37,165 nucleotides of DNA from Paludibacter propionicigenes (GTDB taxonomy: Bacteria; Bacteroidota; Bacteroidia; Bacteroidales; JAFGXI01): contig DYMG01000004.1 in NCBI GenBank assembly GCA_020721655.1, forward strand, positions 20,276-57,440, read 5' to 3'. Below the pieces are notes generated by a model. It had not been told where the DNA came from, did no database searches, and was given only the letters and a program-made list of their open reading frames with translations. Positions 3,239 through 36,678 of this stretch are shown here, piece by piece. Numbering within the stretch: the stretch's first letter is position 1; the number at the start of each line of letters is the position of its first letter. The position numbers and the translations under genes were made by a program.

Positions 3239-5104
3239 ATGAAAATAAATTTCTTTTTACTGAAGAACAAAATTCTTTTTGCGAATTCAATTCTAATTTT
3301 TTTCTATTTTATATTAATTATTATTTTAATTCAACATAAAAATGAAGGTGATAATATTGTTGGCTTTCAAAGAAAAATATATGAGCTTAATTCGTTTATT
3401 GGTAGTGATTTAGATGCTATAAATTTATTTATGTTAAACGATAATATTAATGCAGATTTGTACAAGTATAATATTACAAAAAATATAATTACCCATAATA
3501 AGTTTGTTAAGAAAACAGATGTTTTAAGTAGTGAAATAAAACAAAATATTTATTACTCTGGTAATTATAAAGTTAAAATTGATTTTTTAGTTAGCCTTCA
3601 AGAAAATAGAACTTATGTTTTTAATTCACTTTTACAATTTCAAATAAAAAGGGGGTTTTCCGACTATGGTTACGAGGGTAATATGAGAAATTCAATTCAT
3701 TTTGTTGAAAATAACGATTTGCTACCTCTCTATAAAACGCTTATGTTTAGACGGCATGAAAAAGATTATATTATACGAAAAAATTATGAGTATATTCATA
3801 AATTAGAAGAATTGTATAATAAAACTATTAAGCAATTAAATTCAAAAACACAGGTGTATAGTAAATTGTACGATTACAACAAATGGTTTATGCAAATAGT
3901 AAAACTTGATTCAAATATATCAATAGAAAAAAATAGACTAAATTATTATGATGAAAAAATAAAAAAAACAATTACAGATATAAATAGTTTAATTGAATCT
4001 ACAAACCAAAAAATAAAGAAAGAAAATACTTATATAATTTTAAAATTGGCAATTTCATTTATTTTGATAAGTATTATTCTAAATTGGATTATTGCACATC
4101 ACATATCAAAAAAACTTCATAATTTAAACATTGCAATAAAAGATTTTATTGCTAACGATTATTTAATTCCGAGCAAATTTAATTATGAAATAAAACATGA
4201 TGAAATTGGTGAAATTATAACTAATTTTTTCAAGTTAGAAAGTCAAATTATTGGGTATATAAATAATTTTAATGTTCAATTATCACAAAGAACAAAGGAA
4301 ATTGAATTACAAAAACTTGTACTTCAAAATCAAAATAAAACAATATTCGATAGTATTAAATATGCAGAATCTGTTCAGAAATCGTTTTTGCCTAAAAATG
4401 AGCATCTTAAAAAAGTATTTAGCAGTGTTTTTATGGTTTATATTCCACGAGATATTTTAAGTGGCGATTTTATTTGGACAAGAACCATACAAACTAGAAC
4501 AAAGAATTTATCTTTTGCAATTTTAGGCGATTGTACGGGGCACGGAATACCTGGAGCAATGATTAGTATGGTTGCAATTACATCAATAAACGAAATAATA
4601 TTACATAAGCAAAAATATAGTACAGATACAATATTAAATAAACTAAATAATAAATTTATTGAACTTTTTCAAGAAGAAAGTAACCAATCAATAATGTATG
4701 AAGGTGTTGATATTGGTGTTATTTTAGTTGATAATAATGAAAATAAATTGGAATATGCTGGAGCCAATATTGACTTGCTTCTTATGAGAAAAGGGAATGT
4801 GGAGGTAATAAGTGGTAATAAAATTTCGGTTGGAAGAACAAATAATATTGATTTTAAATTTACTAAAACATCTATAAATATACAAAAAAACGATATGTTA
4901 TATCTGTTTTCTGATGGTTTTCAAGATCAATTTGGTGGAGAGTTAAATAAAAAATATAAGCGAAAAAATTTGCATCATTTTTTAAAATCTATTCACAATA
5001 AAGATGTTGAGGTGCAAAAAAATGAAATTGAAACTGAATTCCAGAAATGGAAAGGAGATTATTTTCAGGTTGATGATATTTCTGTTTTGGGTATTAAAAT
5101 TTAA
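3239..5104 (+). CDS. Membrane-bound HAMP/SpoIIE-type PP2C serine phosphatase
   Basis: 621 aa; two TM helices flanking an extracytoplasmic region, HAMP-like segment, coiled coil, then PRDILSGDFIWT...LGDCTGHGIPGAMISM...LYLFSDGFQDQFGG typical of SpoIIE phosphatases. Confidence 0.88.
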   Translation: MKINFFLLKNKILFANSILIFFYFILIIILIQHKNEGDNIVGFQRKIYELNSFIGSDLDAINLFMLNDNINADLYKYNITKNIITHNKFVKKTDVLSSEIKQNIYYSGNYKVKIDFLVSLQENRTYVFNSLLQFQIKRGFSDYGYEGNMRNSIHFVENNDLLPLYKTLMFRRHEKDYIIRKNYEYIHKLEELYNKTIKQLNSKTQVYSKLYDYNKWFMQIVKLDSNISIEKNRLNYYDEKIKKTITDINSLIESTNQKIKKENTYIILKLAISFILISIILNWIIAHHISKKLHNLNIAIKDFIANDYLIPSKFNYEIKHDEIGEIITNFFKLESQIIGYINNFNVQLSQRTKEIELQKLVLQNQNKTIFDSIKYAESVQKSFLPKNEHLKKVFSSVFMVYIPRDILSGDFIWTRTIQTRTKNLSFAILGDCTGHGIPGAMISMVAITSINEIILHKQKYSTDTILNKLNNKFIELFQEESNQSIMYEGVDIGVILVDNNENKLEYAGANIDLLLMRKGNVEVISGNKISVGRTNNIDFKFTKTSINIQKNDMLYLFSDGFQDQFGGELNKKYKRKNLHHFLKSIHNKDVEVQKNEIETEFQKWKGDYFQVDDISVLGIKI

Positions 5105-14196: not shown

Positions 14197-16164
14197 ATGA
14201 AAAAGTTTGATGCTATTCAAAATTACGAAAATACAAAAAAAGCAATTGGCTATGTTTCTCGTAAAGTTGCAACACAAAATGACTACGACCGTATTGGCTT
14301 TATGTCGGGTTTAGAAGTCCATCAACAAATATTAACAAAAAACAAACTATTTTGCCGTTGTCCTGCCGGAGTTTTTAGCAAAAACAATGAGTTCGATGCC
14401 GAAATTATAAGGCATATGCGTCCAACACTTTCTGAATTAGGTGAGTACGATGGCACAGCGTTAATGGAGTTTAGAACTAAAAAAGAAATAACATATAGAA
14501 TTAGCAACAAAAACACCTGTACTTACGATATTGACGACACTCCACCTTTTCCAATAAATAGAGAAGCTTTAGAAAACGCCTTGCAAATATCGTTGTTGTG
14601 TAAATTTAATATAGTTGGAGAGGTTCATATTACACGAAAACAATATTTAGACGGAAGCATACCTGCCGGATTTCAGCGAACAGCAATTTTAGGTGTTGAA
14701 GGCGAAATTCCTTTAAAAAACAAGAAAGTTAGGTTAATTCAACTAAGTATTGAAGAAGACAGTTGTAGAGAAATTTCTGATATCGGACACAAGCGAGTGT
14801 ACAAAACCGACCGTTTGGGAATGCCGCTAATTGAAACAGTTACATACCCCGATATGGTTAACCCAAATGAGGTAAAAGAAGCCTGCGATTATATTCGATT
14901 TTTAAATAGAAGTACCGATAAGGTTAGAACAGGTCAAGGTGCTGGCAGACAAGATGTTAATGTTAGTTGTAAAGGAGGAACTCGTATAGAAATAAAAGGC
15001 GTATCGCACACAAAGTGGATACCAGAACTTACACATGTTGAGGCATTTCGCCAATGGGCTTTATTATCAATAAAACAAGAGCTAAATAAACGCATTTCAA
15101 ACACAAAAAATTGGAAAATTAATTACGAATATCTCGATTTTGATATGTTCGAAATAACTTATGAACCCATTAAAGTAGCAAAAGATAATCAATATAAATT
15201 AGTTGCAATAAATTTACCCGAATTTAAAGGCATTTTATCGCATTTTACACAGCCAACAAAAATGTTTGCCGATGAAATTTCCGATAGACTAAAAGTAATT
15301 GCTTGCATTGAAAAACCAAATATGGTTCATACAGAAGATTTTGTGTCAATAATATCTGAAATTGATTTAGAAATTATAGTACCAATGCTTAGAGCCGGAA
15401 ATAACGATGCACAAATTATTTTTTGGGGACCCGAAGATGATATAAAAACTGCAATAGAAGTTGTTGAAGAACGATGTAAAATGGCATTTGTTGGAGTGCC
15501 AGAAGAAACAAGGAAATCATTTTTTGATGGTAGTACAATTTTTGAAAGAGTATTACCCGGAGCCGACAGAATGTATCCAGATACTGATAGTGCACCAATT
15601 CCATTAGAAAACGAATATATTGAATCTTTATCGAAAAAATTGCCTGTAGAAATAGTTGACCGTTTTGCTCAACTTAAAAAATGGCAAATACCCGAAGATA
15701 CGTTTACTTATTTATTGAAAAATAATTTAGTGCCATTGATAGAAAAAATAGTAAACGAACTAAAATTTAACCCTCGTTTTATAGGCGTATTTTTAGGACA
15801 AAAATTAAAATATGTTGAAGGTCATTATAGAGCATCAGTAGAATTTGAGAATACTTCAATATTTAATCTTTTTAAATTTATAAAAGAAGAGAACTTAAAT
15901 AAGAACATTGCCGAAATAATGTTACCAATAATTTATCAAAACCCTAAAATGCAGTTAAATTCAGTTCTTCACGATTTAAAATTTAAAAAAAGAACAAAAG
16001 ACGAAATAATAGCGCCAATAGCATTTTTGCAAAATAAATTTGATGAAATAGGCAAAAACAAACCAAAAGAAGCCCAAATTAATTGGGTTATGGGCGAATT
16101 AAGAAAACAAGCTTTGGGAAATATAGACTTAAATGAATTGAGAAAAATAATTCTAAATTCATAA
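14197..16164 (+). CDS. gatE: Archaeal-type Glu-tRNA(Gln) amidotransferase subunit E (GatB-like core + GAD domain + YqeY-like tail)
   Basis: GFMSGLEVHQQILTKNKLFCRCPAG, QYLDGSIPAGFQRTAILGVEGEIPL, RLGMPLIETVTYPDM. GAD-type insertion with VGVPEETRKSFFDGSTIFERVLPGADRMYPDTDSAPIPL, characteristic of GatE rather than GatB. Confidence 0.93.
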   Translation: MKKFDAIQNYENTKKAIGYVSRKVATQNDYDRIGFMSGLEVHQQILTKNKLFCRCPAGVFSKNNEFDAEIIRHMRPTLSELGEYDGTALMEFRTKKEITYRISNKNTCTYDIDDTPPFPINREALENALQISLLCKFNIVGEVHITRKQYLDGSIPAGFQRTAILGVEGEIPLKNKKVRLIQLSIEEDSCREISDIGHKRVYKTDRLGMPLIETVTYPDMVNPNEVKEACDYIRFLNRSTDKVRTGQGAGRQDVNVSCKGGTRIEIKGVSHTKWIPELTHVEAFRQWALLSIKQELNKRISNTKNWKINYEYLDFDMFEITYEPIKVAKDNQYKLVAINLPEFKGILSHFTQPTKMFADEISDRLKVIACIEKPNMVHTEDFVSIISEIDLEIIVPMLRAGNNDAQIIFWGPEDDIKTAIEVVEERCKMAFVGVPEETRKSFFDGSTIFERVLPGADRMYPDTDSAPIPLENEYIESLSKKLPVEIVDRFAQLKKWQIPEDTFTYLLKNNLVPLIEKIVNELKFNPRFIGVFLGQKLKYVEGHYRASVEFENTSIFNLFKFIKEENLNKNIAEIMLPIIYQNPKMQLNSVLHDLKFKKRTKDEIIAPIAFLQNKFDEIGKNKPKEAQINWVMGELRKQALGNIDLNELRKIILNS

Positions 16165-16187
16165 TTTAAAATATTAAATAATAGACA

Positions 16188-17573
16188 ATGAATGCAGATT
16201 TCTTTCAAGGATACAAAGGAGAAGCCTTAGAGCTTCTAAAAAAATATAATGTTCGAGTTTGGGGACAAGCTGAAATTGATACAACCAGAGGTCAATTTAA
16301 AGGTACAGTATTACCTCGTTCAGAAAACGACGACAATAAACACATTGTCGTAAAAGTTATTACAGGTTATAATATTGGGGTTGATGTTTCTACAATTACT
16401 AAAATGAAGGAAACAGGTTACAAAAAAGCAAATTACGCAATTCCCGAAAAAGAATTTCCTACAACACCAAACTTGCCAAATGTAAAACTTTTTGGAACTG
16501 GAGGCACTATAGCTTCTCGTTTAGATTATAGAACAGGTGCAGTAATTCCAGCATTTTCACCGGGCGAACTTTATGGAGCCGTTCCTGAACTTGCCGATAT
16601 TTGCAATCTAAATACCGAAAAAGTTTTTGCTGTTTTTTCAGAAAATATGGGTCCAAGCCAATATATGGCTTTAGCAAAAGCAATAGGAAAAGAAATTGAA
16701 AAAGGAATAGACGGAATTGTAATTGGACACGGAACTGATACTTTGCATCATACGGCAGCAGCACTAACTTTTATGGTGCAAAATTCTCCTGTACCAATTG
16801 TATTGGTTGGGTCTCAACGCTCATCAGACCGCCCAAGTTCCGATGCAGCACTTAATCTTATGCACGCAATGAATGCCGCTGGAAATGGCGACATTGCAGA
16901 GGTTATGATATGTATGTTTGGTCCAACTTCCGACGATTACGGATTACTTCACAAAGGAACCAGAGTTAGAAAAATGCACTCATCGTACCGCTCAACTTTT
17001 AGAACTATAGGCGACACTCCTTTAGCAATGGTTAACAGATATTCTGTAACTCCAATTAAAAAAGATTATAAACCACGCCGAAAAGATAAAAACGTTCAAA
17101 TATTACCATTTTTTGAAACAAAAGTTGCAATGCTTTATTATTGGCCAGGAATTCAACCCGATGCCTTAGATTCTTTAATAGATTCGGGATATAAAGGAAT
17201 TATAATTATAGGAACCGGCTTAGGACACGTAAATAAAGAACTATATCCGGCTATTGAACGTGCAAAAGAAAAAGGAGTTATGCTTTTTATGACACTTCAA
17301 ACTCTTTGGGGATATGTAAATATGTTTGTTTACGATACAGGGCGAGACCTAATGGCAAAAGGAATTATACCGCTTGGAAATATGCTTCCAGAAGTTGCTT
17401 GGGTTAAATTAGGCTGGGTTATGGGACAAACAACCGATCCCGAAAAAGTTAAAGAAATGATGCTAACTCCTATTAATGATGAAATTACAGAGCGTGAACC
17501 ATACAACGGATACATTGTATTGCAAGGAGGAGTGCCTGAGGTTGAAGAATTTATAAAAAAAGTTAGAAAATAA
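16188..17573 (+). CDS. gatD: Archaeal-type Glu-tRNA(Gln) amidotransferase subunit D (asparaginase-like)
   Basis: N-terminal small domain (VRVWGQAEIDTTRGQFKGTVLPRSE) followed by an asparaginase-type domain with VKLFGTGGTIASRLDYRTGAVIPAFSPGEL and GIVIGHGTDTLHHTAAALTF. Adjacent to gatE. Confidence 0.93.
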   Translation: MNADFFQGYKGEALELLKKYNVRVWGQAEIDTTRGQFKGTVLPRSENDDNKHIVVKVITGYNIGVDVSTITKMKETGYKKANYAIPEKEFPTTPNLPNVKLFGTGGTIASRLDYRTGAVIPAFSPGELYGAVPELADICNLNTEKVFAVFSENMGPSQYMALAKAIGKEIEKGIDGIVIGHGTDTLHHTAAALTFMVQNSPVPIVLVGSQRSSDRPSSDAALNLMHAMNAAGNGDIAEVMICMFGPTSDDYGLLHKGTRVRKMHSSYRSTFRTIGDTPLAMVNRYSVTPIKKDYKPRRKDKNVQILPFFETKVAMLYYWPGIQPDALDSLIDSGYKGIIIIGTGLGHVNKELYPAIERAKEKGVMLFMTLQTLWGYVNMFVYDTGRDLMAKGIIPLGNMLPEVAWVKLGWVMGQTTDPEKVKEMMLTPINDEITEREPYNGYIVLQGGVPEVEEFIKKVRK

Positions 17574-20788: not shown

Positions 20789-20874
<86 letters not shown>

Positions 20875-21072: not shown

Positions 21073-21561
21073 ATGAAACAATTATTTTTCACATTTAGTT
21101 TGCTTTTTGCAGGAAGTTTTTTATCTGCACAAAATCACGAAGTTGTTGCCTCTGCTGGAGGTTACGATACTACAAGTACTGTAAAAATTAGTTGGACAGT
21201 TGGCGAAACTGTAACTGAAACAATTACCGATAATAATAATATTGTAACACAAGGGTTTCATCAAACTAATTTGACAGCAACTCAAATTGAAGAAAATTTA
21301 ATTTATAATGTAAACTTTGCTGTAAATGTTTATCCAAATCCTACAGTTGAATTTGTTAATGTAGAAATTAAAGCTGATAATTTAGAGGAAGTTGTTTATG
21401 AATTAAACGACAATAACGGTAAATTGCTTTTAAAAGGTAGTTTTAAAACAAATATTGAAAAAATTAATTTTGAAAATTACAAGCCAAGTGTTTATTATTT
21501 AAGAATATACAATAATAAAGGAAATTTTTCTGACACATATAAAATTGTAAAAGGAAATTAA
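21073..21561 (+). CDS. Small secreted protein: SAGG...SWTxGExxTET...TQGFHQ module + T9SS type A sorting domain
   Basis: 162 aa; signal peptide; VVASAGGY..KISWTVGETVTETITDN..IVTQGFHQ; CTD with VYPNPTVEFVNVEI ... YYLRIYNNKGNFSDTYKIVK. Confidence 0.85.
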   Translation: MKQLFFTFSLLFAGSFLSAQNHEVVASAGGYDTTSTVKISWTVGETVTETITDNNNIVTQGFHQTNLTATQIEENLIYNVNFAVNVYPNPTVEFVNVEIKADNLEEVVYELNDNNGKLLLKGSFKTNIEKINFENYKPSVYYLRIYNNKGNFSDTYKIVKGN

Positions 21562-21631: not shown

Positions 21632-21703
21632 TGCGGGGTGGAGCAGAGGCAGCTCGGCGGGCTCATAACCCGTAGGTCGCAGGTTCGAGTCCTGTCCCCG
21701 CTA
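21632..21703 (+). tRNA. Initiator tRNA-fMet(CAU)
   Basis: Anticodon stem-loop CGGGCTCATAACCCG with the three G-C pairs diagnostic of initiator tRNA; D-arm GAGC/GCTC; acceptor GCGGGG/CCCCGC with an unpaired 1-72 position (T-T in this reading). Confidence 0.93.
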
Positions 21704-33405: not shown

Positions 33406-33492
33406 GGAAATGTGGGAGAGTGGCTGAATCCACCAGTTTGCTAAACTGACGTACGAGCAATTGTACCGGGGGTTCGAATCCCCCCGTTTCCG
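33406..33492 (+). tRNA. tRNA-Ser(GCU)
   Basis: Acceptor GGAAATG/CGTTTCC; anticodon loop TTGCTAA (GCT); long variable arm GTACGAGCAATTGTAC; T-arm GGGGGTTCGAATCCCCC; G73. Confidence 0.96.
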
Positions 33493-36189: not shown

Positions 36190-36678
36190 ATGCTTATGCG
36201 AAGATTCATTTTTACATTCGGATTAGGACTTGCTCTCATAGGAGCAAATGCCCAAACCGCATCGCCAGAACTTGTAAGTTCGGCAGGCAATAGTTTTAAC
36301 AACACAAGTTACCGATTGGATTGGTCAATCGGAGAGTGCGTAACAGAGACGCACAGTGCAGGAACTTACATAATAACGCAAGGGTTCCATCAGAATACCT
36401 ACATTATTACGGCAGTAGAAGATTTTAAGTCGGAAATTGAAATGTCGGTTTATCCAAACCCTACAAGTGACTTCATTTCGCTGATTTTTGCAAAAGTTAA
36501 AAACTTTGGCAAAGTTAGTTATACCGTAACCGATTTATCGGGTAAGGTATTACAATACAACGATTTTGCAAACGAAACCGAACAAATCGACTTTTCAACT
36601 TATGCAAACGGAACATATCTAATTTCAATTTCAGAAAACAACAAACAAATAAAATCATTTCAAATAATTAAAAAATAA
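36190..36678 (+). CDS. Small secreted protein: SAGN...DWSIGECVTET...TQGFHQ module + T9SS type A sorting domain (paralogous architecture to 21073-21561)
   Basis: 162 aa; signal peptide; LVSSAGNSFNNTSYRLDWSIGECVTETHSAG.YIITQGFHQN; CTD MSVYPNPTSDFISLIF...YANGTYLISISENNKQIKSFQIIKK. Confidence 0.85.
   Translation: MLMRRFIFTFGLGLALIGANAQTASPELVSSAGNSFNNTSYRLDWSIGECVTETHSAGTYIITQGFHQNTYIITAVEDFKSEIEMSVYPNPTSDFISLIFAKVKNFGKVSYTVTDLSGKVLQYNDFANETEQIDFSTYANGTYLISISENNKQIKSFQIIKK

Follow-up and report, generated by a model that had tools for sequence, protein, structure and literature searches.

The window analysed here is a stretch of 37,165 nucleotides from a contig (DYMG01000004.1) of Paludibacter propionicigenes, a member of the Bacteroidota. 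On its forward strand lie two adjacent open reading frames (ORFs) of 655 and 461 amino acids, which encode GatE and GatD, the subunits of the Glu-tRNA(Gln) amidotransferase GatDE that is described from archaea. The gatE stop codon and the gatD ATG are separated by 23 bp. Judged by its sequence, the gene pair is a complete GatDE with intact catalytic residues in a Bacteroidota genome. The features of the locus, with the evidence on which each assignment is based, are as follows.

14197–16164, + strand: gatE, 655 amino acids, Glu-tRNA(Gln) amidotransferase subunit E, the predicted kinase/transamidase and tRNA-binding subunit (NCBIfam, PDB, structure model)
14197–14280, + strand: N-terminal extension of GatE, about 28 amino acids, NYExTKKxIGYVxRKxATQ (alignments)
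14278–15084, + strand: catalytic core of GatE with the motifs GLEVHQQ, IEEDS and DRLG (alignment identities)
15085–15486, + strand: GAD-like insert of GatE, residues ~297–430, absent from GatB (alignment, model, weak Foldseek matches)
15622–16161, + strand: helical and tail (GatB/YqeY-like) domain of GatE, the expected tRNA-binding part, strongly diverged (alignment; PF02637 below threshold)
16188–17573, + strand: gatD, 461 amino acids, predicted amide-donor (asparaginase-like) subunit D (TIGR02153, NF003217, PDB 2d6f_A and 1zq1_A)
16275–16397, + strand: small N-terminal domain GatD_N, residues 30–70 (PF18195, 40.4 bits, cut-off 25.7)
16479–17462, + strand: N- and C-terminal asparaginase domains of GatD with the catalytic residues T107, T183, D184 and K262 (PF00710, PF17763)
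17499–17570, + strand: C-terminal extension of GatD, EPYNGYIVLQGGVPEVEEFIKKVRK, running about 18–24 amino acids past both archaeal GatD alignments

Identity of the two subunits

GatE exceeds the cut-offs of two NCBIfam models, NF003107 (471.7 bits, cut-off 456) and TIGR00134 (409.2 bits, cut-off 319.6), while the GatB models reach at most 134 bits against cut-offs of 314 to 680. In Pfam, the protein matches GatB_N, and the GatB_Yqey tail (PF02637) stays below its cut-off. The PDB matches are the archaeal GatDE structures (2d6f_C, 1.1e-81; 1zq1_C, 3.5e-81), which align over nearly the full length of the protein. GatE was modelled with AlphaFold from 39 sequences, giving a predicted local distance difference test score of 83.8, and a Foldseek search with this model returns 1zq1_C (E 2e-38) and 2d6f as the best matches, with GatB well behind. 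The GAD-like insert, about 130 residues long, can be aligned with archaeal GatE, and no large gaps interrupt the alignment. In the model this region is alpha/beta, and it gives weak Foldseek matches to GAD-bearing bacterial aspartyl-tRNA synthetase; the Pfam GAD model has no match in GatE.

The core of GatE has a mean identity of 82% within the Bacteroidales, 66% to the other bacterial clade described below and 42% to archaea. Its tail is helical in the AlphaFold model, and the C-terminal motif RG(K/R)ADGK of archaeal GatE has become A.GN in the Bacteroidales consensus. The N-terminal extension is conserved across the Bacteroidales clade and is missing in the archaeal sequences.

GatD is recognized by TIGR02153 (501.1 bits, cut-off 324) and NF003217 (502.2 bits, cut-off 310), contains the Pfam domains GatD_N, Asparaginase and Asparaginase_C, and has 2d6f_A as its top PDB match (4e-114). 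Models of type I asparaginase match the protein as well. The residues T107, T183, D184 and K262 show no variation among 61 GatD sequences. The archaeal alignments stop at residue 437 (2d6f_A) and 443 (1zq1_A), and the C-terminal extension is conserved in the GatD alignment (A3).

A preliminary description of the window, made from the sequence alone, had recognized adjacent GatE and GatD ORFs 23 bp apart on the same strand, as well as a small N-terminal domain and intact asparaginase motifs in GatD. The ORFs and the cut-offs of the curated hidden Markov models bear out the former, and the Pfam domains and the invariant T/T/D/K residues the latter. It had also reported a GAD insertion. Such an insert is indeed present at residues ~297–430, and the structure model, with its alpha/beta insert and a fold that matches archaeal GatE ahead of GatB, agrees with this; the motif quoted for it, FERVLPGADRMYPDTDSAPIPL, however, lies at residues 449–470, in conserved core that follows the insert. 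The pair is filed as GatDE on sequence, fold, catalytic residues and gene pairing. Two features make it a variant: the lack of the archaeal tRNA determinant, discussed below, and the divergence of the tRNA-binding tail.

Distribution and evolutionary history

GatE exceeds the curated cut-off in 122 of 295 sampled genomes of the order, taken to be Bacteroidales from its named relatives, in 30 of 396 genomes phylum-wide, and in 32 of the 119 genomes of a sister class, probably Ignavibacteria, to which genome G132 belongs. Among the GTDB species genomes, at least 552 loci were confirmed as GatE relatives. The best 80 relatives are nearly all from Bacteroidota, and almost all named relatives are uncultured Bacteroidales, Lentimicrobiaceae, Salinivirgaceae, Marinilabiliales and like groups. 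In 69 of the 80 named loci gatE and gatD occur together, and several of the other 11 loci end soon after gatE. Apart from this pair, the 80 loci have no neighbour gene in common; a protein cluster that recurs in 17 of them, and that by eye resembles a lipopolysaccharide-transport (OstA-like) protein, is taken as unrelated to GatDE. A pattern search of IMG/VR found no GatE, and phage and plasmid records gave no full-length match.

In a weakly rooted tree of 73 GatE sequences, only three of which are archaeal, the window gene falls within one Bacteroidales clade (42 rows, Shimodaira–Hasegawa-like approximate likelihood ratio test 100). Its neighbours among bacteria are a second clade, of 27 rows drawn from the phylum's other classes, and a single outlier (L058), and the three archaeal sequences lie across a long branch from the bacterial ones. 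Likewise, the GatD tree places the window within the Bacteroidales, beside L090 and L092. When asparaginases are included in this tree as an outgroup, the outgroup and archaeal branches are very long and erratic, and no root was drawn. GC content (0.32–0.37) and GC content at third codon positions (GC3; 0.22) of the gatE and gatD genes are similar to those of the neighbouring genes. Because the trees nest the window in the Bacteroidales and its base composition matches that of its neighbours, GatDE is considered old in the Bacteroidota rather than newly arrived in this lineage. Ultimately, bacterial GatDE presumably stems from archaea. The earlier proposal of an inter-domain transfer that brought a complete GatDE into this lineage is thus upheld as to completeness, but an acquisition by the lineage itself is not supported, as the gene belongs to an old and broad Bacteroidota clade.

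Strong purifying selection acts on both genes. Between close genome pairs, the ratio of nonsynonymous to synonymous substitution rates is about 0.03–0.09 for gatE and 0.003–0.04 for gatD. Mean column identity amounts to 83% in GatD versus 69% in GatE.

Some individual GatE copies deserve separate mention. The outlier L058 (L058:1471-3405), from a genome that also has glutaminyl-tRNA synthetase (GlnRS; G358), is 34–37% identical to the window GatE and sits on a long branch; it is possibly a third bacterial GatE type. A contig of a Candidatus Aminicenantes metagenome-assembled genome (MAG; L166:5959-9355) carries a Bacteroidales-type gatE-gatD pair with 61–63% identity to the window GatE, which reflects either transfer or a misbinned contig. 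Bacteroidales-type GatE and GatD are also found in an Ignavibacteriales MAG (L162:5998-7950) and in another genome of the phylum (L060:1501-3456), suggesting transfer between bacterial classes, or again misbinning. On a megaplasmid of Natrinema thermotolerans (L170:2629-4466), an unannotated GatE lies in two pieces; the break near 3495–3504 is apparently a frameshift or an assembly error.

Proposed role of GatDE beside GlnRS

The inventory of glnS, gatCAB, gltX and asnS that had been proposed in the preliminary description was made by family searches of the host assembly (2.49 Mb, 119 contigs, 92% complete). The host has a full GlnRS of 565 amino acids (TIGR00440, 763 bits), an asparaginyl-tRNA synthetase (AsnRS; 629.9 bits) and one bacterial glutamyl-tRNA synthetase (GluRS). 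Its glnS adjoins a gene that, read by eye, resembles the Bacteroidota gliding gene gldF. An amidase-type GatA was not matched in this genome, and GatE is the sole match to PF02637, so that GatB was not found either; GatC was not searched. One tRNA-Gln gene was detected, with the anticodon UUG, the pair U1-A72 and the discriminator base A73. Since GlnRS and AsnRS are both present, GatDE is, by gene content, required for neither Gln-tRNA nor Asn-tRNA.

The two synthetases are also widespread among the relatives: GlnRS is over its cut-off in 265 and AsnRS in 275 of the 295 order genomes. Among the GatE-positive order genomes that are at least 95% complete, GlnRS is found in 72 of 74 by our count from two tables, and congeners of both others (G429 and G469) have it. 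Elsewhere in the phylum, 26 of 29 GatE-positive genomes have GlnRS; G252, G288 and G315 do not, and the latter two have a GatB-type protein. Moreover, a binning artefact is excluded as the cause of this coexistence by two single-contig genomes, G606 (4.8 Mb), with gatE-gatD, GlnRS, AsnRS and GluRS, and G132 (3.67 Mb), with gatE-gatD, GlnRS and GatB.

On balance, we lean towards the reading that the two proteins form a bona fide GatD-GatE heterodimer, long inherited in the Bacteroidota, that would act on Glu-tRNA(Gln) beside GlnRS as a repair or back-up enzyme. If it works like archaeal GatDE, the asparaginase-type site of GatD would use Gln or Asn as a source of ammonia, whereas GatE would phosphorylate the side-chain carboxylate of the tRNA-bound Glu, which is thereby converted to Gln. 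GatDE may in this way repair the small amount of Glu-tRNA(Gln) made by GluRS error; alternatively, it may provide a second route that is used conditionally, when free Gln or GlnRS runs short. It most likely works beside GlnRS because Gln-tRNA(Gln) is already formed directly by that enzyme and because GluRS has the look of the discriminating type. The chemistry is extrapolated from the archaeal enzyme, and both the choice of tRNA and the proposed service in repair or back-up are inferred. The surroundings of glnS in two genomes are suggestive of a Gln-tRNA-related substrate. In an order-mate (G434, L233:401-5587), glnS, gatE and gatD stand in tandem on one strand with gaps of ~100 and 2 nt, and in a genome of another class (G014, L234:918-5961) glnS converges on gatD-gatE, ending ~9 nt from gatD.

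Four observations weigh against this reading. Firstly, both glnS neighbourhoods were found post hoc in ~150 genomes. Secondly, all 30 GluRS sequences, from GatE-positive and GatE-negative genomes, have Arg at the position of Thermus thermophilus R358, which we take to mark a discriminating GluRS, and this type of GluRS puts the supply of Glu-tRNA(Gln) in doubt. Thirdly, the helical and tail region of GatE is 17% identical to the other bacterial clade and 15% to archaea. Lastly, each of 35 tRNA-Gln genes from 28 genomes, GatE-positive and GatE-negative alike, begins with U1-A72. Archaeal GatDE has been described as contacting the D-loop and the A1-U72 pair of tRNA-Gln (PMC9499178). This archaeal determinant occurs in none of the 35 genes. 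The trait belongs to the host tRNA rather than to the protein, and it weakens the case for substrate recognition identical to that of archaeal GatDE.

Two candidate markers of GatE-positive genomes were rejected: a switch in tRNA-Gln identity, as all have U1-A72, and a non-discriminating GluRS, as 30 of 30 have Arg358. The discriminator base is A73 in nearly all Bacteroidales tRNA-Gln genes that were read (L201-L230), irrespective of the presence of GatE; in a review, A73 is given as the archaeal and G73 as the bacterial state.

A more far-reaching proposal is advanced tentatively and with some doubt. In a large part of the Bacteroidota, GatDE could act as a trans-acting fidelity factor or specialized amidotransferase with a re-tuned RNA specificity, beside a full set of direct synthetases. 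Bacterial GatDE would then be a class with a function unlike that in archaea, and its hosts would be the first bacteria to combine the direct and the indirect route to Gln-tRNA(Gln).

The main rival explanation, unlikely in our view but deserving serious attention, is that GatDE has been repurposed, with the diverged GatE tail directing the pair to another aminoacyl-tRNA, a tRNA-like RNA or a small molecule. This would fit a tail whose identity outside the clade is 15–17%, against 66% for the core in comparison with the other bacterial clade, a tRNA-Gln that misses the archaeal A1-U72 pair, and the presence of GlnRS, AsnRS and a discriminating-type GluRS, so that neither amide aminoacyl-tRNA needs GatDE. 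However, GatE and GatD both score over the equivalog cut-offs for Glu-tRNA(Gln) amidotransferase, and glnS lies beside gatED in two lineages. Moreover, the tail is weakly conserved in archaea too (38% identity between two of them), so its divergence alone proves no new substrate.

It is improbable that GatD serves chiefly as an asparaginase or glutaminase with GatE as its regulatory partner. GatD is conserved far above GatE and is matched by type I asparaginase models, but the kinase/transamidase core of GatE is strongly constrained and the pair is kept together. Less probable still is the amidation of Asp-tRNA(Asn) in place of AsnRS or GatCAB. The tRNA-Asn and tRNA-Gln of the host do share the U1-A72 start, yet AsnRS is present in the host and in the great majority of the order genomes, as counted above. 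To our knowledge, Glu-tRNA(Gln) is the sole substrate of the known GatDE enzymes.

The preliminary description had considered that GatDE might have taken over from GlnRS and GatCAB as the only route to Gln-tRNA(Gln). As the sole or main route it is hardly credible, and for the host genome this reading is refuted by GlnRS, barring an inactive GlnRS. Instead of lacking GlnRS and having a non-discriminating GluRS, the host has GlnRS and a GluRS with Arg at the R358 position, and GlnRS also accompanies GatE in nearly all relatives. Near-complete genomes without it are few (the five named above), and these mostly have congeners with GlnRS or a GatB-type protein. The failure to find GatA and GatB in the host is consistent with a replacement of GatCAB in a narrow sense, but not with one of GlnRS. 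Contamination with archaeal DNA, misassembly or a very recent archaeal transfer, which the archaeal titles of the models naming both proteins might bring to mind, can be set aside, as the preliminary description had already expected for a misassembly: the gene is nested in the Bacteroidales with neighbour-like GC and GC3 among bacterial neighbours, its relatives in species genomes number in the hundreds, and GatDE occurs in single-contig genomes.

Relation to known systems and other features of the window

The system shares with the archaeal GatDE of Methanothermobacter thermautotrophicus (2d6f) and Pyrococcus abyssi (1zq1) its two subunits, the gene pair, full-length sequence and fold matches, a GatD_N and asparaginase domain with identical catalytic residues, and a GatE made of core, GAD-like insert and helical/tail domain. 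It differs in its bacterial host with GlnRS, AsnRS and a bacterial GluRS, in the U1-A72 of tRNA-Gln, in the diverged GatE tail with its altered C-terminal motif, and in the N-terminal extension of GatE and the C-terminal one of GatD. Bacterial GatCAB has a homologous GatB/GatE core, the GatB_Yqey tail and, by analogy, probably the same overall reaction. However, the window GatE scores far under the GatB cut-offs and has the GAD-like insert, and its partner is an asparaginase-type GatD instead of an amidase-type GatA. Type I L-asparaginase has the catalytic domain and T/T/D/K residues of GatD, whereas GatD adds GatD_N, scores higher with GatD models and pairs with GatE.

GatDE has been stated to be archaeal only (PMC8762117), and reviews of this kind date from 2022. 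Bacteria in which GatCAB occurs together with GlnRS and AsnRS are already known (PMC4206432); the authors of a 2014 paper knew no bacterium having both Gln-tRNA routes. Among open-licence papers, no report on bacterial GatDE was found. The sequences are not hidden, as NCBI models would already label such proteins GatD/GatE in public annotation; the spread of bacterial GatDE, its coexistence with GlnRS and its altered tail appear to be unreported. The presence of an intact, selected GatDE in ~40% of the sampled Bacteroidales, nearly always with GlnRS, contradicts the archaea-only statement and, if the bacterial enzyme has the archaeal activity, also the statement that no bacterium has both routes. 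These bacteria offer a natural system for asking why cells keep a direct and an indirect route to Gln-tRNA. In addition, GatDE is weakened as a marker gene of archaeal DNA in metagenomes.

Upstream of gatE, an RNA element was sought and no Rfam match was found. Elsewhere in the window, two similar secreted proteins of 162 amino acids are encoded at 21073–21561 and 36190–36678, which by their look form a small paralogous family; the one at 21073–21561, which was scanned, carries a Por_Secre_tail sorting domain. Lastly, the window contains tRNA genes for Ser-TGA (20789–20873), Met-CAT (21632–21703) and Ser-GCT (33406–33492).

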